Origin: Cellulophaga sp. L1A9 | GTDB taxonomy: Bacteria; Bacteroidota; Bacteroidia; Flavobacteriales; Flavobacteriaceae | Direction of reading: 5' to 3' | Assembly: GCF_009797025.1 (NCBI RefSeq) | Contig: NZ_CP047027.1 | Coordinates: forward strand, 558,001-622,000 | Length of the DNA stretch: 64,000 nt | Shown here: positions 6,184-61,494 of the stretch, piece after piece | Position numbering within the stretch: position 1 is the first letter of the stretch | How the letters are laid out: every line of letters starts with the position of its first letter | The notes under the pieces: model-generated | The model's database searches: none | What the model was told of the DNA's origin: nothing | The model's input: the letters and a program-made list of their open reading frames with translations, nothing else | Position numbers and translations under genes: made by a program

Positions 6184-8079
6184 TCAACTTTTATCTGATC
6201 TTATCCACATGCAATGGCCACCACCGGCTACCATTTTAGCTTTTATTATATCTCCTTTTTTCACCGTTGAAGTTCGAACTTGATACGCTTCAGGATTGGT
6301 TTCACTATCTGTTTCTTCTGTATCTTCATAGTAGGTGATTTTGTAGGCTTTATTTTCTTTTAGAAAGTCTAGATTAATATTTAAAGTCCCGCCATCAGCA
6401 TGAACAGAACCAATATACCAATCATCACCATGTCGCCTCGCCGTAGAAATATAAGAGTCCATTTTAGCATGTAATACTCTAGTTTCGTCCCATTTTGCAA
6501 CAGGTATTTGTTTAATAAATTCAAATAAATCTGATTTGGCTGCATAGGCTTCTGGAGCATCAGGAATACACACCAAACCACTAAATATAATTAGCGTACG
6601 TGCAGCCTCAGCTGAAACTGTAGTGAATAACGAATTTAATTTTTTAGGTCCTTTTTCACGGTATCCTGCATTAACTCCTGAGATATCAAAAATCCCATTA
6701 TTCATATCTAATGGGCCTTGAATACCATTAATCAGTGCCATGCGTATAAAAGTTTTTGGAGTAAATGCACGTCTGGAATCTTGTTGCGCATGACAAAATT
6801 CCCGGGAAATAGCATTAGGAAAAGTTCTGGATATTCCAGTAAAAGGCACTGGACCATCATGAAAATTAATTAATAGACTATTTTCTGCACTTCTTTGAAT
6901 AGCCTCTCTTGTAAAAGGCACATCTTCGCCCATAAAACCATATTTAATACCTTTCATACCTAGAGATTTGAAATAAGAGAATAAGTCTTCGTCTCCATAA
7001 TCTCCCCGTTTTCTATCATAATATAAAAGCAATGAAACTCCTTTTTCAGCAGCATAGTTTGTTACTTTATCAAAATTTAAGTTTTCAGACATTTCTATTT
7101 GACCTTGTTTCACATCAGAATACCAACCCGCATCAATCATAAAGTATTCAATATCATTTTCTGAAGCAAAATCTAAAAAGCGATAATAGCTTTCATTATT
7201 TATACCATAAGTAAACCCATCATCTGCAGTATATCCATGAACTCTCCAATCCCATAGGGTTTTACCAGGTTTAATCCATGACGAATTTTTAATCTGGTTA
7301 GGAGCAGCTACATTTAATGGCAACGTATTGGTTAAAAAATTTCCGATTTTTTCCTATAAGAGAATGACACGCCACGGTGTTAACAAACTCTTTTCATTTG
7401 AATCAAATTCATTTTCTGAAATGAGCTTATTTTTTTCTTTATCAAATTTAAAATCGATAAGTTTAAAACCAGGAGCACTCACTAAGTCGGATTCTAATAG
7501 TGATAAGTATTTTTTTTGTTCTCTTTCTACAACCAATGGCATATTAAATCTATATTTAATGGAATCCATTTTTTTCAACGCACCTATTGACAAAGGTCCA
7601 ATGGGTTCACCTTCACCTGCGGGTGCATATAAACTGTCTGTATCTTCCAATCCAAATTCAATAAAAAAAACAGGCTTAGCATCGGATAAAATTTCATCAG
7701 ATTTAAATCGAAAAGCTACTCCATTATTATAAGTTCTTACTAAAAGTGTTACTAGTGTACCTTCATAATTTAGTAATACTTCCAACTCACTATAATGATT
7801 TTGGATTTCACTGAATTGTCCCCAAACGGGATTCCAAGTTTCGTTTATTTGTTTTGTATTCGACTCTAAAACATCAACCTTCAAATTTTGTAGCAATGAA
7901 ATCTCAGAATTTAAAATCACACCTTTATTATAATCATAGAGATTATATTTTAACTTCCCTTCGGTATTGTCTAGTTCAATTTTAACGAATCCGTTAGGAG
8001 AGGTTATTTCTAATTGTTTTGGTTTTGTGCAAGCGAACAAGGTTGTAATAATACCAATTGTAAATACTATTTTTTTCAT
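6184..8079 (-). pseudogene. GH97 family glycoside hydrolase split by a single in-frame TAG stop
   Basis: The reading frame begins with a lipoprotein signal (TLFAC) and a GH97 N-domain containing ETWNPVWGQ. It runs to LLTPWRVILL, hits TAG at 7354-7356, then continues in the same frame as EKIGNFLTNTLPLNVAAPNQ through the catalytic barrel (GKTLWDWRVHGY, FMIDAGWY, GIKYGFMG) to the C-terminal beta domain ending at 6184. The combined length of about 630 codons is normal for GH97, so only the nonsense codon is wrong. Retaining GH97 members have an Asp where this reads IKYGFMG; its absence would fit the inverting group (inference). The substrate would be a terminal alpha-glucoside or alpha-galactoside. 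A TTG at 7321-7323 could in principle restart translation, but without a signal peptide. Confidence 0.88.
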
Positions 8080-11248: not shown

Positions 11249-12496
11249 TTAATGCCATGTAATTTTCGCTTCTCTACTTTCAGTATTTAACCAAACACTA
11301 GCGTGTTCAAATTGGCGAGTAAATTCCCAACCTTCTGGTGTTGTTCTTTTGTATGCACCTTTTGGTGCTCCTAGGGGTTTTTGCAGCTCTGGATAATTTA
11401 CCATTGGTCCTGTTGACAACTGCCAACCCCAACTATACATAAAATAGGAATATGGTTGTGCTCCTATTAAGTAACAGGCCAGAGCAAATTCTAATTTTTC
11501 TTGAGAATATTTTGGCATTTCGTCTGCAGGCTTTAGGTTTCCGCGGCCTGCACCTTCAACACCCAAACGAAAAACGGATATTTTACCTTCTTTGGCATTT
11601 TTCAGCATATCCTTCCATTCGTTTAGCAAATTTTCTTTACTCGATCTAATTGTAGCATAGTTTTCAAACATAACAGCGTCGCATACGGTATAAGCAAATT
11701 TTGCATCATCATTATTGGCATTGTTTCCTAATAGTATTTTGTCCGGCCCCATTTTATTTTTAAGGGAGGTCATCATCTCACCCATGGCTTTTTCTATTTC
11801 TGGCTTCTTATCATTACGAAATCTGCTATTACCATGCATTTGGTCAATAAAAACACCATCACAACCAGATTCCCTAACACCTTTGACAACTGTGTCAACC
11901 CACCATTTACGGAAATCGGGATTTAATATGTCAAAACAAAAAGCACCATAATGCTCGTATAGCACACCAGTTTCTGGATTGGTGAGTAAATATTGTTTAA
12001 GTTCAGGATGATCTTCAATACTTTCATTCGTAAAATTCTCGCTGTAAGACGTGTAAGGCCAAGCGTATGCAGAGTTGAAATAAAATAAGACTTTGGCATT
12101 AGGCTTAATTTTTTTAAATGCTTCTGCTTCATGCTTAGCACCTAATTCTGCTGCTCCAAGTTCTTCTTTTCCATGTGATTTCTCAATACAAAGAAAATCT
12201 GTTTGGGCAGCTATAAATTCCACCTCCTCTGGCAATAACAAACGTTTCTTATCTTGAAACATAAAATACAAAGGCGTGGTTTCCCAGCTAAATTTAGGAA
12301 AGAAATCCTTTGGTACAAAGCTGCTTCCGTCACTGATCAATATAGGTTGATTGTCAGTAGTTTTTTTTATCACTTGTGCATTTACCTCGACACCAAAAAG
12401 TGCAACCAAAAGCAGAAAGATTAAAGATGAACTTGAAATCAATCTAATTTTTCTAAAAAAAGTGTTTATAGTATTATTCATAGTATTCCTGTTCAT
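11249..12496 (-). CDS. Putative glycoside hydrolase-like TIM-barrel protein, secreted
   Basis: This 415-residue protein has a signal peptide ending near VEVNAQ. The body looks like a (beta/alpha)8 barrel: FLCIEKSHG, AKVLFYFNSAYAWPYTSY, GAFCFDILNPDFRKWWVDTV, CDGVFIDQMHGNSRF and MFENYA at successive strand ends. The FDIxxPDxRxWW and DGVFIDQ motifs resemble those of hypothetical glycosyl hydrolase families (GHL15-type, Pfam PF14885) in which Asp in the FID motif may be catalytic. No activity can be assigned. Start is at 12496, or 12481 if the second Met is used. It lies 35 bases upstream of the broken GH141-like gene and follows a sulfatase gene by 85 bases. In this setting it is a candidate for a new fucan-active or branch-active enzyme. 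Confidence 0.75.
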   Translation of the reverse strand: MNRNTMNNTINTFFRKIRLISSSSLIFLLLVALFGVEVNAQVIKKTTDNQPILISDGSSFVPKDFFPKFSWETTPLYFMFQDKKRLLLPEEVEFIAAQTDFLCIEKSHGKEELGAAELGAKHEAEAFKKIKPNAKVLFYFNSAYAWPYTSYSENFTNESIEDHPELKQYLLTNPETGVLYEHYGAFCFDILNPDFRKWWVDTVVKGVRESGCDGVFIDQMHGNSRFRNDKKPEIEKAMGEMMTSLKNKMGPDKILLGNNANNDDAKFAYTVCDAVMFENYATIRSSKENLLNEWKDMLKNAKEGKISVFRLGVEGAGRGNLKPADEMPKYSQEKLEFALACYLIGAQPYSYFMYSWGWQLSTGPMVNYPELQKPLGAPKGAYKRTTPEGWEFTRQFEHASVWLNTESREAKITWH

Positions 12497-17902: not shown

Positions 17903-20900
17903 TTATTTTTTTATAATTCGGAACGGCTTACTTTTTTGTCCGTTCGCTGTGATAATTACAAAATAAATTCCACGTCTGAAACCGGATAAACTAAGTGCGT
18001 AATTTGAAGTGCCTTGTTGTAATAAAATTTCATTACTTAATCGAACTCTTCCAAGAATATCAACTACTTGTAATTGTCCATTCCCACTAGTACTACTGCT
18101 AATTTTAATTGTAGTTTCTGAATCCATAGGATTTGGAAATACAGAAATCACTTCAAGTGACGCTGCAGTCCCACCGCCACAACCACCTAGGGTTGCGCCT
18201 ATTCTTAAGAAAGTATTTACAGCAAAGGGTGGTAAACATAAAGATTTTCCTTTATAGCAAACCTGTACCATATATCCTTTATATCCACAGCTTACATCAG
18301 TTACATTTACAATTATCGTACCCGAGGTAGAGCAACCGTTTTCATCTGTAACTGTTAAAGTATACGTAGTTGTCTCCTCCGGAGAAACCGAAATTGTACT
18401 TGTGGTCTCTCCTGTACTCCATACATAGGTGTAATCACCGGTACCACCAATAATTGATTCTGGTTCCAAAGTAGCCATTTCAGTCAAATATCCAACATTA
18501 ATATCTTGATCTTCGATCATGGTAATTACAATAGGTTCTATTGCATTAATGGTGAATTCTTGAGTTAATGTGTTTCCAAGCTGATCCTTAATTTCAACAA
18601 AATAGTCGCCAGCTGCCAAATCTTCAGCAATTTGGTTTTCTTGTCCATCACTCCATAAATAGCTGTAAGGTGGTTGGCCTCCTATACCCTTTACAGTTGC
18701 AGTTGCAGTCTCTTCATCTGCACATAGTAGTGGCGTAGTAATAAGTGATACCAACTCTAAGTCTGGGGTTGGAAAATCGAACTTAACTAGCACATTTATC
18801 CCCTCAACCGACCATTTATTGGTTGCTGATGCATTACCAACTCCAATCGCAAAATCGGTGATGTTTTCAATTCCGGTGGAGGCATCCAAAAATATTTCCT
18901 CTGGTGTTGAAGATAATCTACTTAAATTAGTAATGACTTCATCTACTTTTAGTGAAACACGATCATTTGCAGATTGTGCATTGACAACAATTACAGATTT
19001 AAATACTGCCGTTATGTCTTCTACGCTTAATAGACTTCCATTGGCTGAGAAATCTATAATTTGGATATTATTTATGCTTTTTACCCAATCGTTATCACTT
19101 CCGGTAAAAATGTCATCACTATTTGCATTTGTTCCATCACCTAAACCCCAAGCATATTCTGTAGACACGCCTCCCGAAAGACCTGAAATTACCGCTGCCT
19201 CACTAGGAGGTGTTACATCGATAGCGATTTTATAGGTAGCTAAACCATCTGTTGCTATTTGAGTTTCTGAAATCATTGTAGCTACCTCACCAATTCCATA
19301 ATTAGTTGTTGGAGTTGCCTTAATTTCTACTGGTACACCATCAGAAGTATCCAAAGGATCTACTATTACTTGTAATTGTACGTCAGTTGAATGTGAACCA
19401 TCACTAAGATTAAGAGTAATGATGTTATCGCCAACATGATCTATCTCTGGTGTTCCACTTAAATACCAAATACCTTCAGATAATTTTTCTACAGTAAGCC
19501 AATCTTCACCAGCACCAACAGTTATATTAAGATCATCATCTTCAAAATCATAAAAATCTACACCTTCTTCCAAATAATATTCAAACAACTCTTGAACTGA
19601 TGTATTTTCTAAAACGATAGAACTTACTTTCCAAACAGGAGAACCATCACCAGGATTGGTAAATCCATCAGGATTAGATTTCACCTTCAAGGTCACTTCT
19701 CTATTTCTACCTCCATCTATATCTTCGGCTTTTAATTCGAAAGTATACGCTGTATTTTCGGTTTCCGTAGGTGTTCCTTTTAAAGTCCAAACTCCATCTT
19801 CAGTTTCAGTTATTGTTAACCATGCTGGAGCTTCGTCACCAATTATAGAAAGATTAGTAACTCCAACGTTTTCTGGATCCCAAAAATCTTCACCTTCCAC
19901 TAATATATGCTCATAGTTTTGACCTGGAATTATATCGGACAAAATGGTATATTGTCTCGCCCAATTTGGCGCGCCCGGAAATTGAAATTCGCTAAGGTTA
20001 GCATCTACCAATTCTAATTGCCTCAGCGCATAGGGTTGAAGCGTAAGTTCTGGATTATTATTAAGATTAGTTCTCATCAATGGTGTTCCCCAAGTGATAC
20101 CGCCTCCATTAATCAATCCTACATTATTCCATTCTACAAATTCCTCATCGGTTAAACAAGGTACGCCGCCGTCATTCCAAGATGAAGTACTCTGCTTTGG
20201 AAAGAAATGTGCTACAACATTATCATTCCAACTAATATCATCATTGGTATATGGGAAACCATTTGTATCTCTCATATATTCACAAATACCAAAATTAACC
20301 CTATATAATGGATCTCTTGGTTCAACCATATTTCCAGCACCTCCAAAAGGATGTCCAAATTTATAATCCTCAAAAAGTGAAGGTTTTACATATGGAATAA
20401 ACGGGTCACTATCGCGATCTCCAATACCATTATTAAATGTTACACCTGCTTGTGGATTTCCTGCGTGAACAGCATCCGCAAAAGCTTGAAATACTCTTTG
20501 GTCATCTATATTACCAGTACTATAATCGTCTCCAGCTCCTCCACCAATATTCACATGTGCAGCATCAAAACACCAAGCATCAATCAAATCACCATAACGC
20601 ATAGCATAATCTTTTAGAATAAATTCTGCATAACTGAACATATATGGTCGTCTATCGTCATTAACACCATCTATGTGATATGATTTACTATTAATAAATG
20701 CTTGAACTGTAGGATTGGTATCGCAATATTCCTTCCAGCGATCTGAAAAGTCAGGGAATGCTTCTGGTGCACTACCAAAAGCTTCCCATTGTAACAAATT
20801 AGCAGAATTTACATATACCTCCGTTTTCAGTCCTGCTGCTTTTATAGCCTTAAGCCAACTTAAAAACGGATCTGGTACTGAAGCTCGCGGTACAACCAAA

Positions 20901-21316
20901 TTTATTGGCTGCCCATCTGGACCAAGATCACCTTGCCACAAACTTTCTAAAATAGTGTGTGGTGCTGTATGCACTGGGGAATAGATGTATGGACTTGCTA
21001 AACCTACCTGCACGAAATCTACAGTTTTAAGGTGTTGTATTTGATTTAAGAAACCATCTATTGAAACGCCTTCTATATTTCCATTATAATTGTTTTCAGG
21101 TAACCATAATAAACCTAATGATCCTCGCATCCAATCCACGCGTGTTCCCAGATTTGGGTCTGGCACTTGAGCATAAGTTGACATTGCTGAAAACAAGCAG
21201 ACGCCTAAAAACAACAGGTTCATTTTAATCTGAAGCGATTTTTTTCTAAAGACATCCATAGTAAAATCTATGTTGTAATCCTTTCGAATTGTTTTAAAAG
21301 AGTAGCTTGTTTTCAT
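17903..21316 (-). CDS. Large T9SS-exported multidomain protein, candidate endo-acting fucan hydrolase
   Basis: This protein has 1137 residues. The signal peptide lies late (MNLLFLGVCLFSAMSTYAQ), so the true start may be an inner Met. Residues ~50-480 look like a (beta/alpha)8 barrel with LKTEVYVNSAN, IDAWCFDAAHVNIGGG, GVTFNNGIGDRD, LFEDYKFGHPFGG and GITWGTPL. Next come two dystroglycan-type Ig-like repeats (PAWLTI...LKGTP and DWLTVE...LSGTP, ~480-655), a ~200-residue beta-rich region, an SprB-type repeat (GGQPPYSYLWSDG) and a PKD-like domain (GGTGDYTYVWSTG). A Cys-rich link and a type A T9SS sorting domain (VFPNP, GIYFVIITANG) end the protein. It is the only clear cell-surface enzyme of the locus. 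The barrel could belong to a fucanase family such as GH168, but I cannot confirm this. Asp in WCFDAAH and Glu in LFEDY are candidate catalytic residues (inference). Confidence 0.85.
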   Translation of the reverse strand: MKTSYSFKTIRKDYNIDFTMDVFRKKSLQIKMNLLFLGVCLFSAMSTYAQVPDPNLGTRVDWMRGSLGLLWLPENNYNGNIEGVSIDGFLNQIQHLKTVDFVQVGLASPYIYSPVHTAPHTILESLWQGDLGPDGQPINLVVPRASVPDPFLSWLKAIKAAGLKTEVYVNSANLLQWEAFGSAPEAFPDFSDRWKEYCDTNPTVQAFINSKSYHIDGVNDDRRPYMFSYAEFILKDYAMRYGDLIDAWCFDAAHVNIGGGAGDDYSTGNIDDQRVFQAFADAVHAGNPQAGVTFNNGIGDRDSDPFIPYVKPSLFEDYKFGHPFGGAGNMVEPRDPLYRVNFGICEYMRDTNGFPYTNDDISWNDNVVAHFFPKQSTSSWNDGGVPCLTDEEFVEWNNVGLINGGGITWGTPLMRTNLNNNPELTLQPYALRQLELVDANLSEFQFPGAPNWARQYTILSDIIPGQNYEHILVEGEDFWDPENVGVTNLSIIGDEAPAWLTITETEDGVWTLKGTPTETENTAYTFELKAEDIDGGRNREVTLKVKSNPDGFTNPGDGSPVWKVSSIVLENTSVQELFEYYLEEGVDFYDFEDDDLNITVGAGEDWLTVEKLSEGIWYLSGTPEIDHVGDNIITLNLSDGSHSTDVQLQVIVDPLDTSDGVPVEIKATPTTNYGIGEVATMISETQIATDGLATYKIAIDVTPPSEAAVISGLSGGVSTEYAWGLGDGTNANSDDIFTGSDNDWVKSINNIQIIDFSANGSLLSVEDITAVFKSVIVVNAQSANDRVSLKVDEVITNLSRLSSTPEEIFLDASTGIENITDFAIGVGNASATNKWSVEGINVLVKFDFPTPDLELVSLITTPLLCADEETATATVKGIGGQPPYSYLWSDGQENQIAEDLAAGDYFVEIKDQLGNTLTQEFTINAIEPIVITMIEDQDINVGYLTEMATLEPESIIGGTGDYTYVWSTGETTSTISVSPEETTTYTLTVTDENGCSTSGTIIVNVTDVSCGYKGYMVQVCYKGKSLCLPPFAVNTFLRIGATLGGCGGGTAASLEVISVFPNPMDSETTIKISSSTSGNGQLQVVDILGRVRLSNEILLQQGTSNYALSLSGFRRGIYFVIITANGQKSKPFRIIKK

Positions 21317-26165: not shown

Positions 26166-26567
26166 ATATATAATCTTTAAAAAGGATGGGAATAAAATTT
26201 GTTCCTATATTTTGCCTCTGGAAAATTCTAAATATTTTCACATAAAATCCAATCAAAAAAACTCAAATTTAATAATTTTATATATTCACTTTATAGCAAA
26301 AAAATATCATGAAAAATGTAAATTAATCAAAATAACTTTTAATAAAAGTGATGTATTTACGAAAAAACAATTATATAATATAAAATTAATTAATTTGTTC
26401 ACCTACAAATATGCATTCAAAATAAGCAAAACACTTACTCGCGTCGTGCTTTTTTATTGCTGAAATCAACTTGGTTGAATTCAGCAACTATCTGTCCTTA
26501 GTTTTCAATGTATTTATTGTCTTTATTTGCTCAAATCAATCATGTGGTTATTCAAATAAGTGTTTTA
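26166..26567. other. Intergenic gap upstream of GH29, with hairpin and a weak promoter-like box
   Basis: This gap is about 400 bases and very AT-rich, with no credible gene. On the minus strand TAAATTTG (26264-26271) matches the Bacteroidota -7 consensus TAnnTTTG about 100 bases before the GH29 start. The nearest upstream TTTG (26297-26300) is 25 bases away, longer than the usual spacing, so the promoter call is weak. The hairpin at 26457-26487 is listed separately. Confidence 0.35.
26457..26487. repeat. Hairpin: 14-base inverted repeat with 3-base loop
   Basis: Arms 26457-26470 (ttgctgaaatcaac) and 26474-26487 (gttgaattcagcaa) are complementary except for one position, with loop ttg. It lies about 80 bases after the GH36 remnant in the direction of transcription. 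A run of T is not seen after it on the minus strand, so it may act as an RNA-stabilising stem or a terminator of another kind rather than a classical intrinsic terminator. Confidence 0.6.
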
Positions 26568-28079
26568 TTATTCTTCAGTCAATTTAAATACAGTACTTTC
26601 AAGGGTCTTTCTTAAATTAATCCATATGCCTACACTCATGAATACCTCTCCCAATACCAATTGATTATTATTAACTAATATGAGACATTTCGCCTTCCAT
26701 ATTAATTTCGTTTACACGATGGATGGCTTCGGATTTTAATCCCTGCATTTTCACACTATTCCTTTCATATCTGGGATGATTAGTATGACTAAAAACCATT
26801 AACAAGGCTTAATCTTTATTTTTAGAGATATAGTTTATGGTTGCATACCCGTCCTCACAATAATGTGAAAGCAAGGGATATAAATCTCCGAATTGAACTA
26901 TCGGCCGAATAGCTTTATAAAGAGTAATACCATCATTTGCAAATTCAACTTTTTTTCTTCCAAGTCATCAGGACGTAATTCTATTCTCATACGGCCACTC
27001 ATAGCTACATCAAACCTAAACTTTAAAGACGCTTGTCTTCCTGTTTGATGATTTGGTTATTTAGTCGCATGAGCTGCAGTGGCAATTGGCGGTTAAAATG
27101 ATTGGTTCCCATTGGATAAATAACCGTTCATAAGTATCTGAATTGTCGCTTGCCAAAAATTCATGTGTATACTTCATTGAACCTAAATCTACGCGTCCAC
27201 GACCAGAAGCGCAGGCCTGAATAATAGTTGTAGGATGATTTTTCTCAAGTCGTTTTAGTACATTTTCTAAACCTCCCGTATAATCAATGAAAAGATGAGA
27301 TTGTTTTTTCTCTTCTAGAGAAGTAGAATTGAAGTTCTGCAAATACCTATTTGCATCCCTTTAAGCATATGCGATATAGAGAGAGGTGATGTTAAAATAT
27401 TATCTACAATGTTAAATACAAATTCCTGAACTTCAGGATTAGAAAAATCAAGTAAAAGCTGATTACTTTCTAACAATAGCTCTCGCTCATTCTTCCGTTG
27501 TAGAATTCATTCAGGGTGATTTTCTGCCAATTTACTTTTAGGATTTACCAGTTCTTGTTCCACCCAAATACCAAAACGCGTACCTTTTGATTGCGCATAA
27601 TTAATAAGCTGGCCCTGACCTATTGAAAGTTTCTTTTTATTTACCCTCCAATCACCCAATCCTGCCTTGACACTATCTCTTGGATATTCATTTCCAAACC
27701 CACATCATCAAGTACAAAAACCTCAACACCAATTTCTGCAGCTCCATCCATCATCGATTTAAGTTTGTCTGCATCAAAATAAGCACCTTCCCAACTATGT
27801 AGCCTTAGTACCATTGGCATGTGTTACCATTAAAGCGAATTCATTAGAGGCCCCATTCCCAAAACTAGGGTAAGCCATAATAAAAACCACAGTCATGTTT
27901 TCTAAACCTTGAGTATTTGGTATACGCTGACCATCGTGTGGTTGAAATACCTTTTTGTTCTATTTAACTTAAAAAATTATCGAATTATTACTCGTTTGAA
28001 TATGTATAAGTTGTGAATACAGATTAGTGTTAATTAAAAAGCAGGTAGCTACAACCAAAAATATATTTTTGATTTTCAT
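26568..28079 (-). pseudogene. GH36 family alpha-galactosidase, heavily degraded
   Basis: A signal peptide start (MKIKNIFLVVATCFLINTNLYSQ) lies at 28079. GH36 blocks follow in shifting frames: YPSFGNGASNEFALMVTHANGT, then after a large gap WEGAYFDADKLKSMMDGAAEIGVEVFVLDD, FGNEYPRDSVKAGLGDWRVN, RFGIWVEQELVNPKS, and ESNQLLLDFSNPEVQEFVFN. Further on are LFIDYTGGLENVLKRLEKNH, QACASGRGRVDLGS (active-site region), FLASDNSDTYERL, RPIVQFGDLYPLLSHYCEDG, and a C-terminal end at TAA 26568-26570. Stops and frameshifts occur many times, and roughly 200 codons of the N-terminal beta domain are missing (1512 bases against about 2200 expected). One open stretch of 93 codons remains at 27061-27342. The gene once removed alpha-galactose, consistent with a galactofucan. 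Confidence 0.88.
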
Positions 28080-28133
28080 ATTACCATATTGTTTCGTTTA
28101 TAACTCGTATTTCATTGCGTATTTATCAATTTT

Positions 28134-31399: not shown

Positions 31400-32252
31400 T
31401 AGTTCTCGTTTATAATATATCGATTCCAAAATGAAGCTATGTTATTAGCATCATTACCTAAATTAAATATGTACCAATTTTCTACGCAATCAGAAAAATC
31501 TACGCCTCCAGCTGCAATCCATTTATTAGTCCATTCTGATTCCCATTCTTCACAAACCTTCTCGGCATACGTCCATATCTCGCGAGCACTTTTATTTGGA
31601 TTATCTGAAGAAGTAGCTCGCTCTAACCATAACTTGTCATTACTTCTATAACCAGGTGTTTCATTATCATCAGTATTGCCATCATCTATTTTAACATAGA
31701 CTGTATTTTTTTTAACCAATTTAGTTCTGATTCCGTGGTGTTTTTTTCATTATACTTACTGTGCTGAACACTAATGACATTGCTTTGTATTTTGGTCAAA
31801 GCAACACTTTCTGCAATTACAGCTTGCAACACATCATATGTAAAATTTGATTGTCCAGCCTCTTGTACAAAAACCTTTCCTCCTGCATTCAATACAGGGA
31901 TAATTTTATTTTTTGCTCTAACAACAGATTCTGACCAATTTGCATGGGCATTCGTCCAGTCTATATTTTCAGTCCCAAACAAAAAATTATAATAATCCGG
32001 TACCCCATTAGTAATAAAAATATGGTTTTGATCGCCGTATGTTCCTATTACTGCAAAATAATCGACGCCAGATAAATCAGGATGTTTGAGCATACTCGCC
32101 AAAGCAGCAGCAGCCATCACATCATCTTCATCTGGTTTAAGGTCAAAATTTGCAAGTAGTAGATCCGTATTCTTATTAAAGGTTTGGGACAAAGCGACAG
32201 GAAGGCCTAATACTAAAAAAAGTATGGTAAAAACGAGAGATTTCAGTTTCAT
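31399..32252 (-). pseudogene. DUF1593 / nucleoside-hydrolase-like protein with a one-base frameshift at an A8 run
   Basis: The 5' part (from 32252, leader ending PVALSQ) reads LLLANFDLKPDEDDVMAAAA, GKVFVQEAGQSNFTYD and VISVQHSKYNEKNTTESELNW. This matches DUF1593-type proteins with an Asp-rich N-terminal motif. At a run of eight A on the minus strand (T run at 31706-31713) the frame goes wrong and stops at 31686. The next frame picks up exactly where expected: KKNTVYVKIDDGNTDDNETPGY, then GGVDFSDCVENWYIFNLGND, to 31399. One extra A would restore a protein of about 283 residues. Possible causes are a true mutation, slippage that is corrected by the polymerase or ribosome, or a base-calling error. 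It overlaps the upstream beta-helix gene by 4 bases. Confidence 0.8.
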
Positions 32253-34621
32253 AAGGTTGTTTTAATTAAGATTTCTTTCTGTTCACGAACTACCTTTAAA
32301 GTGACTGGAGAAGCATTAGCGCTTTCCAAAAGTTGCAAAAACTGCTTTTCATTAGCCACCTTTTTTCCATTGACATTTAAAATAAGATCGCCTTCCAAAA
32401 GCCCAATATTGGCAGCTTGTGAATTTTGAGGTGCTTTTTTTAAAGCTATTCCTCCGTCCTCTTTAGATACGCCATAGGCAGAAAATTCCATACCAGATAA
32501 ACCACTAATAGTAGCGCCCATCCAAATTGTGGCCTTAGGCTTTCTTTTAGTGCGGTCACTTTTTATAAGCTGATCAGAAACACCTAATGCTGGTATTTCA
32601 GGGGTTTTTGCTATTGCTTTTAGTGACGGTTTTTTAACTCCAAATTGATCCATCGGAAAGTTTTTAAAACCTATATCAAATGCAGGTGAGCCTTCTTTCA
32701 CTCTAAAATCTCCATTTTCAGGATCTATGAATTGAGGATTGGCAACTATGGAATGCACATCCCAACCGAATATTTGAGTGAGTTCTGCATCAAATATTAA
32801 ATTGCTATCAACGCGTTTTCCAGCTGTCTCCTGTTTCGGAACATTGACGCCTTGATAGGTAAACATGAAGATATTAGAGTATACTTCATCTTCACTATTT
32901 TCATACCACACATGTGGATGAAAGGTATTGTTCACCGTGATATTGTTCCATGCACGTCTTCTGTAACCTTCGCGAAGTTTTAAACCACCTGCCAACATTA
33001 AATTATTATAAATATCATAATAGGTAGAACCATCATCTAAATCAATGTCCCAACCATGATCACAACGCCAACGACTGTTGCGAATGATGGTAGTTTTTAT
33101 CGCATCTGCAAAAGGCAAATCTGGATCTTTTTCTATATCAAAGTTTTTAAGGCGCCAATACCTATCTCTTCCCCATGAGTTAAAAAATCCGTGATCATGT
33201 GTTTCCAAGACGGTATTAAACACATCACAACGTTCAATTAAATGACCGCCAAAAGCGCCATCTCCAATATTGATCCCTGAACGTGCACAATCATAAATTG
33301 AACAATCCCTTACAGTAATTTCCATCGCCATGGTTATTTCAACTCCTGCTGGCTGTCGTTCCACCATTCCAATATCATGAATCAAACAGTCTTCTACAAT
33401 GCCCAAAGATGGATAATTTTCTGTTTTTGGCCCAGGTGTTCTATCAATTTCTGAAAATTCATTAGTCTCTCCATATTCAAATAATGGATTGCGTAAGGCC
33501 TTTGGATCGCCCACAAAACAGATACCACTTGCCCCTGTATGGTGAATGTAATTGCCTTTTATTAGTGTACGACGGTTATAGGTATTCACAAAGATGGCAT
33601 TTCCACCAACCTGATCAAATTCACAATCTAAAATCTGGATATCTTCCGTACCTGTCAACATAAAGGCACCACCTCTAAAAATTGTCCAATCAGAACGTAC
33701 CATCGGTTCTTTGGTTTCCATAAACGTTCTGGCAGCGTGCCTTACTACAAAACCTTGTAAAGAAATGTGTTTCACTGGATTCTCAATTGAACCTTGAAAG
33801 TCTATCAATTGCTTTAACCGAACAACTTCCAGCTTGGCTGTAGCTAAATCTGTAGTTTCTTCAGGTTTATAGTATAAAGTCTGTGAAAGTTCATCATGAA
33901 ACCACTCGCCTGCGGCATCCAATTCTTCGAAAATATTTTCTGCCATACGGTACTCGGGATGCATTCCTAACTGGCGATTGTTTTGCCAACCACCTTCATA
34001 ATTCACCTCACCATCAGCATTTTTTCCGGTGATTACGTAATGATAACCACCCCAACGTTTTGAATGCATAGCATGAATATAACCCCCTTTAGGATTCTTC
34101 CATCCTTCAGCGCGTTCCTTTGAAAAAGCATCTGCTGCGTAGCCTTGATAGGCTTCCGTTTTTTTACTTGCATCGTAATTAGGATATCGTGCCATACGTT
34201 GGTTTGATCCATCAATAAAAACCTGATCTATGATCATTCCTTTTGGTGTTTTTGCCTGAAATATGCCATCACGATACGGTGTCCATTGAAGTTCTAACTT
34301 TAAACCTCCGCTTAACACCGCACCGCCTTCATTTTGCGCTCGATATACAATCGGGTATTTTTCTGAACCAGAATCTTGCTGAGTGAAAACGATGGTTTCA
34401 GGTAAATAATAAACCCCATCTAAAAAATAGATTGTTACAGTCTCTTTACCTGCATAAGCACGTGCTTTTTTTTGAGCGGCACCGAAGGTCGCCAAAGGAT
34501 TATTTTTCTTACCGCTATTGGCATCCGAACCATTTGGACTTACATAAATATTCAAAGCATATGCTGAAGACAACATGCTTCCACAGAAGAAATAAATTAA
34601 AATAAATAGGTAATTTTTCAT
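32249..34621 (-). CDS. Right-handed beta-helix protein with C-terminal PDZ domain, secreted glycosidase candidate
   Basis: This is a 790-residue protein with a signal peptide ending SSAYA. It starts with NIYVSPNGSDANSGKKNNPLATFGAAQ, the entry of GH141/GH120-like helical enzymes. Parallel beta-helix coils follow (GTEDIQILDCEFDQVGGNAIF, RTLIKGNYIHHTGASGICF, RDCSIYDCARSGINIGDG, HDHGFFNSWGRDRYW, HGWDIDLDDGSTYYDIYNNLML). It ends with a PDZ domain (~697-790: AANIGLLEGDLILNVNGKKV). PDZ domains usually bind peptide C termini, so a sugar-active helix carrying one is unusual to find described. It may tether the enzyme to a periplasmic or outer-membrane partner (inference). It overlaps the DUF1593 gene by 4 bases and lies 18 bases after a GH29. 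Confidence 0.88.
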   Translation of the reverse strand: MKNYLFILIYFFCGSMLSSAYALNIYVSPNGSDANSGKKNNPLATFGAAQKKARAYAGKETVTIYFLDGVYYLPETIVFTQQDSGSEKYPIVYRAQNEGGAVLSGGLKLELQWTPYRDGIFQAKTPKGMIIDQVFIDGSNQRMARYPNYDASKKTEAYQGYAADAFSKERAEGWKNPKGGYIHAMHSKRWGGYHYVITGKNADGEVNYEGGWQNNRQLGMHPEYRMAENIFEELDAAGEWFHDELSQTLYYKPEETTDLATAKLEVVRLKQLIDFQGSIENPVKHISLQGFVVRHAARTFMETKEPMVRSDWTIFRGGAFMLTGTEDIQILDCEFDQVGGNAIFVNTYNRRTLIKGNYIHHTGASGICFVGDPKALRNPLFEYGETNEFSEIDRTPGPKTENYPSLGIVEDCLIHDIGMVERQPAGVEITMAMEITVRDCSIYDCARSGINIGDGAFGGHLIERCDVFNTVLETHDHGFFNSWGRDRYWRLKNFDIEKDPDLPFADAIKTTIIRNSRWRCDHGWDIDLDDGSTYYDIYNNLMLAGGLKLREGYRRRAWNNITVNNTFHPHVWYENSEDEVYSNIFMFTYQGVNVPKQETAGKRVDSNLIFDAELTQIFGWDVHSIVANPQFIDPENGDFRVKEGSPAFDIGFKNFPMDQFGVKKPSLKAIAKTPEIPALGVSDQLIKSDRTKRKPKATIWMGATISGLSGMEFSAYGVSKEDGGIALKKAPQNSQAANIGLLEGDLILNVNGKKVANEKQFLQLLESANASPVTLKVVREQKEILIKTTL

Positions 34622-38219: not shown

Positions 38220-39750
38220 TTACTTTTCTACTTGATAAGATTTTAATAATGCTTTCATCTGTTTTACTTTTTCGGGATATAGGTTATACAAATTTTTTGT
38301 TTCATATAAATCCGTTTCCAAATTATAGAGCTGTGCAGGTGGTGCATCTGCTTTTATTTTACCAATTTCAATATCACTATTGACATTTTCAGCGAAAGAT
38401 ATGGCTGCTGGCCCACCAAAAGCATGCGTACCTTGTTTTCCAGAAGCAAACCCACCTCCACCTTGAGCTCCTATATATAACCAGTTACCTTTACGAATAG
38501 CTAAATGAGAGGTTTTTTTTGGCGCTAAAAGCACTTCGTCTCTTATCTGTTTATTGGTTTCGCCAGTAATTGCTCCTAATATGTTTTTACTATCCTGACC
38601 TTGTCCTTGCTCCAATTCCTGTTCTGTAAGTGCTGCGAAAGTGGCAAGCATATCCACATTACAAATCAACTGATCAGACACTTCTCCAGCATTTATTTTA
38701 TTAGGCCAATGCGCAATAAAAGGAATACGATGACCGCCTTCCCAAGCATCAAACTTAAAACCTAGTAAATCACAATTTGTGTCCATCTTTCCAAGCTTTT
38801 TGCCTTGTAGCATTAAACATCCCCCCATTATCACTTGTGAAAATAACCAAGGTATTTTCAGCTACACCCATTTCTTTAAGTGTTTGCATGACCTCACCAA
38901 CAATCCAGTCTAATTCATGAACAAAATCACCATACAAACCACTTTCACTTGTTCCTAAAAATTGTGGTGCTGGAGTAAAAGGATGGTGAATGTTTGTTGT
39001 AGCAAAATATAGAAAGAAAGGCTTCTCTTTTTGCTCTTTCATCCAACCTAAGGCTTTTTCTTTTAAATGAGTTCCTACTTGATCATCAACATATAATGCA
39101 TGGGCATTATCGGCTCCTCCAATATCATCCAAATTCATTTTTTCAAAAACTTCTCTTGTTTTGGCTTTGTTTTCATACACAAATGGGTCGGCTTCCGTCA
39201 GCCCTACCACATCATGATTTTCAACATATACAAAAGGAGGATGACTATTTACCACTGGTACACCGTAGTAATAATCAAAACCAAGTACATTTGGTCCGGG
39301 GTTTAATGGTTTGTTCCAATTAACAGGCTCTGTTGTCCCAAAGCCTAAATGCCATTTTCCAATACAAGCCGTTGCATAACCCGCTTTTTTTAATACGGAT
39401 GCTATAGTCTCTTTTTGGGTATCAATTACTAATTTATTTTTGAGAAAAATAGGATTGTTTAAATTACCATGTCTAATAGGGTACTCTCCTGTAAGTAAGG
39501 CATATCGCGATGGTGTACAAACAGCTGACGCAGAATGCGCATCAGTAAACATTCGTCCTTCTTTGGCCAGTTTGTCGATATTCGGTGTTTGAAGTTTTGT
39601 TGCTCCATAACATCCTAAATCTCCATAGCCTAAATCATCTGCATTTATTAAAACAATATTAGGAAGTTTTTGATTTACTTGTGCAAAGCTTAGTTGACTC
39701 AAAATTGAGATTATGCAAAACGTCAGAATATTTTTCATAAGAGTATTCAT
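38220..39750 (-). pseudogene. S1-family sulfatase interrupted by a frameshift
   Basis: The 5' part (start 39750, or the second Met at 39738, leader ending QLSFAQ) has the NADDLGYGD metal site, CTPSR (Cys78), GKWHLGFG and FTSDNGGMFNA. It runs to WKDGHKL and stops at 38770. The expected continuation NCDLLGFKFDAWEGGHRIPF lies in another frame and runs to 38220. The sequence at the junction (GGACACAAATTGTGATTTA on the minus strand) fits a small deletion just after the Lys codon for HK, for example of four bases. No long homopolymer is present, so a base-calling slip is less likely than at the A8 site of the DUF1593 gene. All metal and Cys residues lie upstream of the break, but about 40 percent of the protein is lost. 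Confidence 0.87.
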
Positions 39751-42528: not shown

Positions 42529-44778
42529 TTATTTTTTTAATCCCATTTTTGAAACATCCAAGGGTTCTATACCCAATTTAATCGATGGACTTCCTTCTTT
42601 AAAACCAAAATTTCCACCAGCTACATCAATAAACATAGGTTCCGCAAACAAACTTGATTTTTCTTTTCCCGCTGCACGCATTCTATCGAAATGTTCAGCC
42701 ATCCAATTTGGATTTGTTGGATTAAAATACAGGTTGGAATCCATTTCGGTTTGCAACAAATCAGGAAGGTTAGTCGTTTGGTCCTTACGTGGTCTTTCTG
42801 CATACGCATTACCACCATCCGGATGTGAAACGATGATATTATGAAAAACCTTTGAACCTGTTACTGGCACCCATTCAAAACTTATATATCCAAATCTTGG
42901 TGGCACGCGAGGTGCAACTATCACATTGTTTATAATGTCATTAACACCTTTTGATGCAATCCCTGCACTAAAAGCGTAATTATTAGAAAGCACATTGCCA
43001 TAAATCAGTGTTTCATGCTGATCATCATCACAACGGATAGGCGCTGGCATGGAATGTTCTAAATTATCATGCAGATAATTATAACGAACTATATTCCCCG
43101 TTCCTGCGCCAGAGACATAAATGCAATTTCCATCAGAAAGCAATTGTACAGCATGCGTAATTTCATTGTATTCAACAATATTGTGTCTTGAATGGTTGTA
43201 TATTTCACGCGCTTTCCAGCTCTCATAATTTTCTTTAGTATTCGCTATAACCTCCTTAGATATTTCATTGCGCCTTATCGTTCTTCCTCCTTCTCCATTG
43301 AGTTTTCTGTCTGGTTCTACCCGATTAGTTATGAGTATTCCGGCATAACCACTATGATGGATATAATTATTTGCGATGCGGTTATACCCACTTTGCCATG
43401 CCCATATCCCGGGAGAATGCCATGTTATTTCGCTAAAATGATGAATCTCATTATTTATAATATCATTATGATGGTTAACATCTTTTGTACCTGGACCATA
43501 ACCAGCAATTAATATTCCTGCTTCTCCAAGATGGGCAAATTCACAATCTTCCACCTTATTCCGTTGCGCAAATAAATCAAATCGGACTCCTGAACCACCT
43601 GAATTTTCAAATTTACAATTGATGACTTGGCAATTTTCAGCACCACGGAAACGGAGCATAGCCGTTGGTCTATCGAACATATCCCAGTCGTGTTGCATTC
43701 CCCAACCCAATTGATCATCATCATTTGTCCATGCTCTTCGATCAGCATGCGAGAAAGTAATTCCCGAAAATGAAATTCCTCTTACAGGTTGATCCTCAGT
43801 ACCCTCATAATCAGTAGTACCCTCAACGCGAATAAGTTCACTAGTAGTTGGTGCAAGAATCCCTTGCGGAGATCCATCAGATGCTGGATTTTTTGGCCAT
43901 AAATATATTTTTCGTGTTTTAGAATTTATAACCCATTCGCCAGGTGCATCTAAAGCTTCAAGAATATTTTCAATCCAAGCGGAATTGCCATCTTTTGTAT
44001 GCACCCAATGTGCTAATTCACCCATTTCATAAGTTGCAGAAACCTTGGTTCGTGCTATACCATTCTCCTCATCGACAGATTCAAGTGGTAGCATATTGAT
44101 CATCCATGCACGACTTGGTCTAATGTTTAACTCAACATCTTGAAGGTTCTCCCAATTTCTTAATTTTCCATCTGGAAAATATAACGTTTTTTTATCCCCT
44201 ACTTTAATAGGAACGAAACCTTCTGCTCTGGCACGGTTTAAACGTCCTTGACCATCATAAAGCGTATAGAATTTATTGATACCTTCTGGCAAATTAGCTA
44301 CCCATACTTTTCCAGAAGCTATGGTTGGTAACTCAGAAGATGATGCTTCTAATAATGTCCAATCGTTCACCGGTATTCCTGAACTTATAACAGGTTCTTC
44401 CCCAGAATAGGCCGCAAAGGTTAAATGTGCAGGAGGTAATTTTCCAGCGCCTGGTTCTTCAACTATTGGGTTTCCATCGGAAGAAGCTAACCCGTCTTCT
44501 ATACCCAGCACAAGTGTTTCTTTTAATTGATGGCGACCACCCCTAAGATAAATAGTAGCAGGTTGTGTGTTGCCATTTTTTCGTAGCTCACGAACGGCAT
44601 CGACCGCTTTTGTGATAGTTGCAAAAGGCTCTAATAGCGTACCAGTAGCATTATTTTCTCCTTCTACTGAAACGTAAAAATTATTAGCCTCATTTGTTTT
44701 ACATGCTGAGAATGCAACAAGCATAAAAAAATAAATTAAAAAAACCTGGTTGTACTGTTTAAAATTATATCTCAACAT
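42529..44778 (-). CDS. GH141-like right-handed beta-helix glycosidase, lipoprotein
   Basis: This protein is 749 residues with lipobox AFSAC. Entry block: NNFYVSVEGENNATGT and EPFATITKAVDAV. Pre-helix domain: DDGQGRLNRARAEG-like segment and TLYFPDGKLRNWENL. Helix: MLRFRGAENCQVINCKFENSGGSGVRFDLF, GEAGILIAGYGPGTKDVNHHN, HSPGIWAWQSGYNRIANNYIHHSGYAGILI and DGNCIYVSGAGTGNIVRYNYLH. It ends FIDVAGGNFGFKEGSPSIKLGIEPLD. GH141 founders include a fucosidase/xylanase from Bacteroides, and many homologs occur in fucoidan loci, so an exo-fucosidase role is reasonable. It is the intact counterpart of the broken gene at 9.0-11.2 kb. Confidence 0.88.
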   Translation of the reverse strand: MLRYNFKQYNQVFLIYFFMLVAFSACKTNEANNFYVSVEGENNATGTLLEPFATITKAVDAVRELRKNGNTQPATIYLRGGRHQLKETLVLGIEDGLASSDGNPIVEEPGAGKLPPAHLTFAAYSGEEPVISSGIPVNDWTLLEASSSELPTIASGKVWVANLPEGINKFYTLYDGQGRLNRARAEGFVPIKVGDKKTLYFPDGKLRNWENLQDVELNIRPSRAWMINMLPLESVDEENGIARTKVSATYEMGELAHWVHTKDGNSAWIENILEALDAPGEWVINSKTRKIYLWPKNPASDGSPQGILAPTTSELIRVEGTTDYEGTEDQPVRGISFSGITFSHADRRAWTNDDDQLGWGMQHDWDMFDRPTAMLRFRGAENCQVINCKFENSGGSGVRFDLFAQRNKVEDCEFAHLGEAGILIAGYGPGTKDVNHHNDIINNEIHHFSEITWHSPGIWAWQSGYNRIANNYIHHSGYAGILITNRVEPDRKLNGEGGRTIRRNEISKEVIANTKENYESWKAREIYNHSRHNIVEYNEITHAVQLLSDGNCIYVSGAGTGNIVRYNYLHDNLEHSMPAPIRCDDDQHETLIYGNVLSNNYAFSAGIASKGVNDIINNVIVAPRVPPRFGYISFEWVPVTGSKVFHNIIVSHPDGGNAYAERPRKDQTTNLPDLLQTEMDSNLYFNPTNPNWMAEHFDRMRAAGKEKSSLFAEPMFIDVAGGNFGFKEGSPSIKLGIEPLDVSKMGLKK

Positions 44779-59868: not shown

Positions 59869-61494
59869 TCAATACCCTTTTACAGCTTTACGCACTTCTT
59901 TCATAATAGCAATACACTCCGGATTAAAAAATGGGTGTTCGGTGGTCACATCTGGGGTCATAGCAAGATTGATAGTAATAGGCATATTTGCTTCATCAGC
60001 GTTTTTAAATATCTCTATGTATTTGTCTGCAGAGAACTTAGGTTTTTGCGTAAAAACGCCATTTGCTGTTTTACTAGACCAACCATCCATATAAAACCAG
60101 CTAGCAGGAGATTGCCCTTCTAATTGTCCTCCTTCTTGAAATAAAAAATCGGGTTGAATTTCTGGTACTCTTCCTGACCCATCAGACACCACTAAATCGC
60201 TAAAAGGTGTTAGGTTTGGGAATAAATTTTGGCTAAAACCTATTGGTGCGTTTGGATTTCCAGCCTTAATAGCTTTGGCTAATTTTTCCCAAGGTGGGTC
60301 CAATTGATATACTTTCCAACCACCATCATCTATATAACCTGCAGCAGTAGCTAAATCTTCACCATATCGAAGACTCACTTCACGTAAATGCGCTTCTAAA
60401 AAATTGAAATAGCCTGACGGATCAGGGGTTTCGCCACTTCCGTAAGTATTGCCATATAAATCCTCCATACCACTATTTGGATTATAGTAAAGCATCAAGC
60501 GAATGTTGTGCTTACCTAATCCATCTATGAGTTCCCTGATTAAATCACGCTCACATGTAAATCCGAGTTTTATATTATCGATTGTTTTGCTAGGTCCTGG
60601 CCAATGTTGTGTACCATGCGCACAAGTAAAAGTGACCCAAGAAGCTCCTGTCGCTACAACTTTTTCAACAAATGCATCCACATCAAAAACGTCCACTAAT
60701 TTCTGATACTGATCTCCTAACTTTGGTCCTCCATTAAATGGCGATGAACCTGATGAAAAGTGTACAAACAAACCATATTTGCCATCAACCATCCATTGTA
60801 CATCGGCTTTCACTGCTTTAGCACATTCTTTTATTGCTACCTGAGCTTCAGGTCGTACTAGTTCAATAGACCAAAAAGCAAAAGGATTGGGTTTTATGTT
60901 TGCATTGGCTTGGATTTCTGCGTTCTCTTCTTCCTTTTTTTCCTTTCCAAAAGTCACCAGACGAAAGCTAATTTTATTGATACCCTTTTTGAGTGATAAA
61001 TTTTGATTTAAATAATGACGTTGTACAATAGGTCTGGTCTCCCAATTTTTAATATTGGCTTTTTCGATTATTTTAGAAGTTCCTGAGGTTATTTCAAAAG
61101 TTGATTGTGAAAGGATATCATTGCCACCTGTGTACAAAAGCGCTACAGTATATTCTGCTTCGTAAGGTGCTTCTACCTCCCAAGTCATGACATCATCTTT
61201 GGTCAAAAACCCACGTATAAATGCATTGTTAACTACGGTGGGTGTTGGACGTTCTAGGTGATTGAGGTTTCCTGAAAGTTCAGCGCGAAAACCCATAATT
61301 GTGGTGATATCATCTGGTCTTAGTTCCCAAGTTTTGGGTGCCCAATAGGGATGAATAACCCTTGTTGCTGCATTGACATTGTCATGGGCATTGAAAGCAT
61401 TGGCATCTCCTTTTTTAAGAATAGGGTTTTGTGCAATACTCAGCTGCACTAAGATTAAAGAAAGGATGATTATTATGGTTTTAATTTTATTCAT
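59869..61494 (-). CDS. Divergent GH29-like glycosidase with N-terminal beta-sandwich, secreted
   Basis: This protein is 541 residues with a signal peptide ending LSIAQN. Residues ~25-220 form a beta-sandwich (VMTWEVEAPYEAEYTVALLYTGG and LKKGINKISFRLVTFG). The rest resembles a GH29-type barrel: KYGLFVHFSSGSSPFNGG, WVTFTCAHGTQHWPG, IRLMLYYNPNSGM, AAGYIDDGGW (candidate nucleophile Asp) and a C-terminal NLAMTPDVTTEHPFF. The KHHDGF motif is replaced by CAHGTQHW, and the domain order is reversed relative to normal GH29 (sandwich first). It could be a distinct subfamily or a neighbouring family with the same fold. A partial copy of its last 70 residues is at 54.5 kb. Confidence 0.75.
   Translation of the reverse strand: MNKIKTIIIILSLILVQLSIAQNPILKKGDANAFNAHDNVNAATRVIHPYWAPKTWELRPDDITTIMGFRAELSGNLNHLERPTPTVVNNAFIRGFLTKDDVMTWEVEAPYEAEYTVALLYTGGNDILSQSTFEITSGTSKIIEKANIKNWETRPIVQRHYLNQNLSLKKGINKISFRLVTFGKEKKEEENAEIQANANIKPNPFAFWSIELVRPEAQVAIKECAKAVKADVQWMVDGKYGLFVHFSSGSSPFNGGPKLGDQYQKLVDVFDVDAFVEKVVATGASWVTFTCAHGTQHWPGPSKTIDNIKLGFTCERDLIRELIDGLGKHNIRLMLYYNPNSGMEDLYGNTYGSGETPDPSGYFNFLEAHLREVSLRYGEDLATAAGYIDDGGWKVYQLDPPWEKLAKAIKAGNPNAPIGFSQNLFPNLTPFSDLVVSDGSGRVPEIQPDFLFQEGGQLEGQSPASWFYMDGWSSKTANGVFTQKPKFSADKYIEIFKNADEANMPITINLAMTPDVTTEHPFFNPECIAIMKEVRKAVKGY

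Follow-up and report, generated by a model that had tools for sequence, protein, structure and literature searches.

Brown algae contain fucoidan, a sulfated sugar polymer. The 64,000-nucleotide stretch of the Cellulophaga sp. L1A9 chromosome analysed here (hereafter the window) encodes a 1137-residue protein at 17903..21316 on the minus strand, and the question that it raises is what this protein does in an apparent fucoidan locus. The best explanation as a whole, to which we give very high confidence, is a T9SS-exported GH107 endo-alpha-1,4-L-fucanase of the FFA2/Fhf2 clade. The evidence for this assignment comes from comparison with characterised enzymes, while the less ordinary part of the protein appears to be a module behind the catalytic barrel.

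Domain layout and family

The open reading frame begins with ATG and its translation contains both the WCFDAAH and the LFEDY motif; the coordinates and the domain layout proposed by the sequence-only reading were borne out by the translation and by Pfam and NCBIfam scans. Residues 1-49 (21170..21316) look by eye like a probable signal peptide with cleavage before Gln50. Since this peptide seems by eye to end at Ala49, the actual start may be Met20 or Met32. The following domains, all on the minus strand, are the GH107 catalytic barrel D1 (residues 50-448, 19973..21169), delimited by identity to FFA2/Fhf2 and MfFcnA; the Ig/cadherin-like domain C1 (residues 449-550, 19667..19972), recognised by BLAST identity and a He_PIG match below cut-off; the Ig-like domain C2 (residues 551-654, 19355..19666), recognised by BLAST identity; the modelled beta-sandwich module C3 (residues 655-853, 18758..19354); a stretch with SprB and PKD-like repeats (residues 854-1057, 18146..18757), placed by Pfam SprB and by identity to Fhf1; and a T9SS type A C-terminal sorting domain (residues 1058-1137, 17903..18145).

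The sorting domain was matched by Pfam at residues 1059-1137 (E 1.3e-13) and clearly exceeded both model cut-offs (PF18962, 50 bits against 27; TIGR04183, 50.7 against 23). The SprB repeat at residues 859-892 also exceeded the Pfam cut-off, while two Ig-like matches fell below it, and two larger NCBIfam models matched solely at the T9SS tail, far under their cut-offs. The protein carries the single T9SS sorting domain among 39 of the 42 window ORFs of at least 130 aa, the other three being small plus-strand ORFs outside the scan, in agreement with the earlier description of it as the only clear T9SS-sorted enzyme of the window. The window Pfam scans used an E cut-off of 1e-3 in one scan and 1e-5 in the others.

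The barrel had been described as unassigned, which is understandable because neither a Pfam nor an NCBIfam model scored there, but it is a GH107 domain by sequence comparison. A PDB sequence search up to E 1 returned three matches in all, each an Alpha-1,4-endofucoidanase, namely the MfFcnA structures 6dlh, 6dms and 6dns from Mariniflexile fucanivorans, with E-values of 7e-263 to 6e-244 over residues 25-654. GH107 was among the families against which a check had been proposed, and alignment to the solved 6dlh over these residues predicts a (beta/alpha)8 barrel. This single-sequence search (to E 1) did not return the P5AFcnA and Mef1 structures, which are also GH107; the family is therefore broad, with the query on the MfFcnA side. 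Similarity to characterised members spans the whole catalytic domain: the barrel is 86.0% identical to FFA2 of Formosa algae over 399 aa and to Fhf2 of Formosa haliotis over 400, both GH107 endo-alpha-1,4-fucoidanases, 63% identical to Fhf1 over 415 aa and 61% to MfFcnA over 404. Among 120 of 197 matches, a 918-residue protein of Formosa algae, Fhf2 and Fhf1 stand out as the best named relatives. We take the first of these to be FFA2, since its putative nucleophile Asp237 is numbered as in the published table, although its histidine is numbered one position away from the published one. A tree of 73 of 138 barrels, in which row P0130 forms an extreme branch, placed the query with FFA2 and Fhf2 in a 15-row group (support 100/99); its nearest neighbours inside this group are weakly supported (88/60).

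That the protein is instead a GH168 enzyme or founds a new fucanase family, as its barrel without a Pfam or NCBIfam model might suggest, deserves practically no credence: the match to GH107 structures reaches E 7e-263 and the tree agrees, the GH168-like gene of the window is another ORF (11249-12496), and no GH168 structure was matched to E 1 although the library held several (8ya6, 9jos and others), a silence of a single-sequence search with limited sensitivity that is weak alone because the search also missed P5AFcnA and Mef1, whose GH107 structures are distant. A check against GH29 likewise gave no match to Alpha_L_fucos (PF01120) at E up to 1e-3. The GH107 enzyme itself is ordinary, a close relative of characterised fucoidanases to which it adds one more.

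The domain comparison with these relatives is more uneven. C1 is 62-75% and C2 46-71% identical to the corresponding domains of MfFcnA, FFA2, Fhf1 and Fhf2. With FFA2 and Fhf2 alone, the identities of C1, C2 and C3 are 67-77% and the catalytic motifs are alike, but neither enzyme has a BLAST match to the query's extra SprB/PKD-like stretch of ~200 residues or to its T9SS tail. In contrast, Fhf1 of Formosa haliotis, also in GH107, has a like domain order including SprB and T9SS (60% identity over 96% of the query), and its SprB/PKD stretch is 61% identical, the only match to this stretch among 11 relatives compared, whereas its barrel reaches just 63%. The front of the protein is therefore Fhf2-like and its back Fhf1-like. 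MfFcnA (6DLH/6DMS/6DNS) shares the catalytic Asp/His, the Ig-like domains and, in its gene, C3, but has three Ig-like repeats against two in the query. Open frames of ~1700-2000 residues within the same genus contain the SprB/PKD/T9SS tail (window 17903-18757) again, at 34-42% identity, for instance at G000:C1:4078507-4079388 (G000 being the query genome), so that the tail was perhaps gained by domain exchange.

GH107 barrels are sparsely distributed. Family-wide, a barrel match was found in 5 of 397 genomes, one of them marginal (E 9e-4), and a same-genus search located a barrel in at least two of 17 other genomes at 60-61% identity. The 86% likeness to Formosa, Tamlana and Flavobacterium enzymes, set against 60-61% within the genus, points to horizontal transfer. 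A second GH107 barrel of the same genome (G000:C1:554036-555424), ~3 kb outside the window and 42% identical, has a stop codon inside the barrel; its long open relatives occur in Tamlana agarivorans, Mariniflexile sp. AS56 and a Maribacter MAG.

Active site and linkage

The active-site positions of the query follow those described for Fhf1, in which Asp225 is given as nucleophile, His293 as acid/base, and Tyr144, Asn146, Asn268 and Trp366 as the -1 subsite (PMC7698502, PMC10619423). By alignment, the subsite counterparts are Tyr168, Asn170, Asn295 and Trp380, the nucleophile position is Asp251 in WCFD (20564..20566, minus strand) and the acid/base position is His322 in FGHPFG (20351..20353, minus strand). 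All six residues are invariant in 25 of 25 aligned GH107 proteins, a set of hand-chosen relatives, and in the table of PMC10619423 FFA2 and Fhf2 have these catalytic motifs too. In the structure 6DMS, MfFcnA carries the H294Q replacement.

Of the two residues earlier put forward for catalysis, the Asp of WCFDAAH was correctly chosen, as it is Asp251. The Glu of LFEDY, Glu316, is not the acid/base and not catalytic, because the table in PMC10619423 shows Asp, Glu, Val, Met or Gln at this position. Looking for a catalytic carboxylate pair, as had been proposed, is likewise the wrong test for this family, because GH107 is described as using Asp/His (PMC7698502, PMC10619423).

The linkage is suggested mainly by relatedness. 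GH107 includes alpha-1,3 enzymes according to PMC9147238 and PMC7698502, so that an endo-fucanase cutting alpha-1,3 bonds, like Mef2, Fda1 and Fda2, has to be considered; it is very unlikely, as the barrel is 86% identical to the alpha-1,4 enzymes FFA2 and Fhf2, whereas Fda1 and Fda2 are reported as just 24% identical to Fhf1 over D1 (PMC7698502). Residue 170 agrees with this. In the published comparisons, its column is Asn in the alpha-1,4 enzymes MfFcnA, FFA2 and Fhf1, as in the query, whereas Fda1 and Fda2 have Ala there and Mef2 has Ser. Mef1 is described as cleaving alpha-1,4 bonds despite Ala at this position (PMC10619423), and Asn170 is therefore an imperfect linkage marker, supporting evidence at most. 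For the query we thus infer alpha-1,4 cleavage. According to a review, FFA2 and Fhf2 cut alpha-1,4 bonds between 2-O-sulfated fucoses, and disulfated products are also reported for Fhf2 (PMC10619423). The preferred sulfation is not readable from sequence.

Structure, occurrence and possible role of module C3

The less ordinary part of the protein is C3, for which neither Pfam nor NCBIfam nor PDB sequence searches returned a match. Predicted alone, C3 gave a confident beta-sandwich model (pLDDT 92.5); on this model it would be a discrete, independently folding module in carbohydrate-active enzymes, as is expected of a CBM. Its structural neighbours include many CBMs, but at background scores.

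C3 is not confined to GH107 proteins. It was found in 121 of 141 fetched relatives (21 of the 141 having entered solely via a search with C3 itself), in two to four copies in 17 of them and twice without a GH107 barrel. A search with the C3 of a Tamlana protein gave 31 matches, its own query protein counted in, of which 11 had an AXE1 esterase domain and no GH107 barrel. In 45 loci, C3 was present in 47 open frames (the window's own gene counted twice), 12 of which were without the barrel. When ten of these 12 were scanned with Pfam, three proved to be AXE1 esterases, one had cadherin-like repeats and one an Ig-like domain, two otherwise carried a T9SS tail alone (one below cut-off), two had just weak matches below cut-off, PEP-CTERM among them, and one had none. 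AXE1-type esterases with C3 lie near GH107 genes at L009:15835-17958, L013:18245-20377 and L022:6126-9284, and small C3 proteins of ~305-318 residues lie beside GH107 genes at L025:9830-10783, with a T9SS tail above cut-off, and at L024:9004-9954. The placement of C3 also varies, being N-terminal to the barrel in P0134 and just before the T9SS sorting domain in several proteins.

Across the family, C3 is rare and accompanies GH107. It occurred in five of 397 genomes. Four of these are the complete set of genomes with a strong GH107 barrel; the fifth, G714, encodes a 305-residue C3 protein (locus L050) which by eye lies between the end of an apparent TonB-dependent receptor and a fucosidase-like ORF. 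Small C3 frames of 316-319 residues were also located within ~1.5 kb of a barrel in three of the four GH107 genomes. The chance of such an overlap is ~4e-7 with the query's own genome left out, or 1.6e-6 counting the genome with the marginal barrel; these values ignore relatedness and profile bias and are indicative only. The C3 profile used (A2) derives from copies whose loci were fetched through GH107, so that C3 away from GH107 may be under-detected. Three of the four genomes with both (G000, G649 with locus L015, and G671 with L025, the last two paired with their loci by equal coordinates) contributed rows to it, and only G708, with GH107, and G714, without the barrel, are independent of it. 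Among 15 genomes, 44 of 46 C3 copies lie within 15 kb of GH107, a figure that is partly built in, because carriage of GH107 was the criterion for choosing these genomes and GH107 genes themselves contain many of the C3 copies.

Two readings of C3 have to be weighed. In the first, to which we give nearly an even chance, it binds no sugar and acts as a spacer or as a part for attachment to the cell surface. All 47 aligned copies are acidic, with net charges of -6 to -23 (-19 in the query), which is odd for a polyanion binder and speaks against simple polyanion binding. Moreover, Fhf2 trimmed to its D1 barrel, and so lacking the C-terminal half and with it C3, is described as active on fucoidan in vitro (PMC8847386), and the position of C3 directly ahead of the sorting domain in several proteins would suit an attachment part. 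This reading fits less well with a module that is also N-terminal to the barrel in P0134, repeated, and present on esterases and barrel-free proteins, that is confined to the four strong-GH107 genomes and one other in the 397-genome sample, and that has many CBMs among its structural neighbours, though at background scores.

In the second reading, C3 may be a fucoidan-binding module that helps proteins to hold the polymer. We suggest tentatively, at somewhat below even chances and slightly lower odds once the profile and sampling bias is taken into account, that C3 founds an undescribed fucoidan-targeting module family shared by GH107 enzymes, AXE1-type esterases and small stand-alone surface proteins. 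Given the negative charge, binding would then go via Ca2+ or via less sulfated or acetylated stretches. If so, the AXE1-type esterases with C3 would strip acetyl groups from the same polymer, the stand-alone surface proteins would hold fucoidan at the cell, and C3 could serve as a probe for tracing fucoidan in the sea, where this polymer is difficult to follow.

Locus content and proposed degradation route

The 1137-residue protein had been thought to stand in a window with no other obvious endo-acting enzyme. This does not hold, because GH168 and GH141 homologues share the window. The first, at 11249..12496 on the minus strand (415 aa, Pfam GHL15), is a second endo-fucanase candidate: in a PDB sequence search of its own it matched the endo-1,3-fucanase 8ya6 at E 9.3e-145 and 9jos at E 2.1e-162, both given as GH168 (PMC11943901). 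The second, at 42529..44778 on the minus strand (749 aa, GH141_M PF21231), matched 9rx2 at E 5.8e-152 and BT_1002 at E 7e-13; it is a candidate endo-acting enzyme, as a paper of December 2025 describes four endo-fucanases from GH141 (PMC12786026).

Among the 39 of 42 ORFs scanned, Pfam domains identified seven GH29, three GH95 and three GH43 proteins and ten PF00884 sulfatases, one of them broken. For the ORF at 59869-61494, where the GH29 domain covers only part of the protein, the match to the alpha-L-fucosidase 9pnj reached 1027 bits. Esterases of the BD-FAE, GDSL and AXE1 types, a broken GH97, a DUF2961 protein and two further beta-helix proteins are also present. Genes for SusD, a SusC-like receptor and a hybrid two-component regulator follow on the same strand, 7-16 kb past the right edge of the window (L057, genome 628769-637786). 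Taken together, the enzyme and SusC/SusD content looks like a fucoidan utilisation locus. The earlier proposal of an endo-fucanase with T9SS sorting in a fucoidan-type locus is thus supported by GH107 relatedness, the sorting domain and the locus content.

In the proposed route, the fucanase would be exported, carried across the outer membrane and then sorted by the T9SS. It would cut alpha-1,4 bonds between 2-O-sulfated fucoses in the alternating alpha-1,3/alpha-1,4 fucoidan of the Fucus type, with Asp251 attacking the anomeric carbon and His322 serving as acid/base. C1 and C2 would act as spacers, and C3 may help to fix the enzyme or the cell to the substrate. The oligosaccharides would then pass through SusC/SusD and be trimmed by the GH29 and GH95 fucosidases, sulfatases and esterases of the locus. 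On the basis of its T9SS domain, the GH107 protein is a plausible candidate for the first cut of the polysaccharide.

Several genes of the locus are broken, which may reflect real decay or assembly error. The GH97 gene (window 6184-8079, minus strand) has an in-frame stop separating an N-terminal part at 7354-8079 from a C-terminal part at 6184-7323, and the sulfatase at 38220-39750 (minus strand) is split by a frame shift. The region 26166-28133 (minus strand) has no ORF of at least 130 aa and, read in its three frames, appears to be a decayed coding sequence, by eye like a GH36-type alpha-galactosidase. An unusual pairing was seen at 32249-34621 (minus strand), where a beta-helix protein akin to GH141 structures carries a C-terminal PDZ domain.
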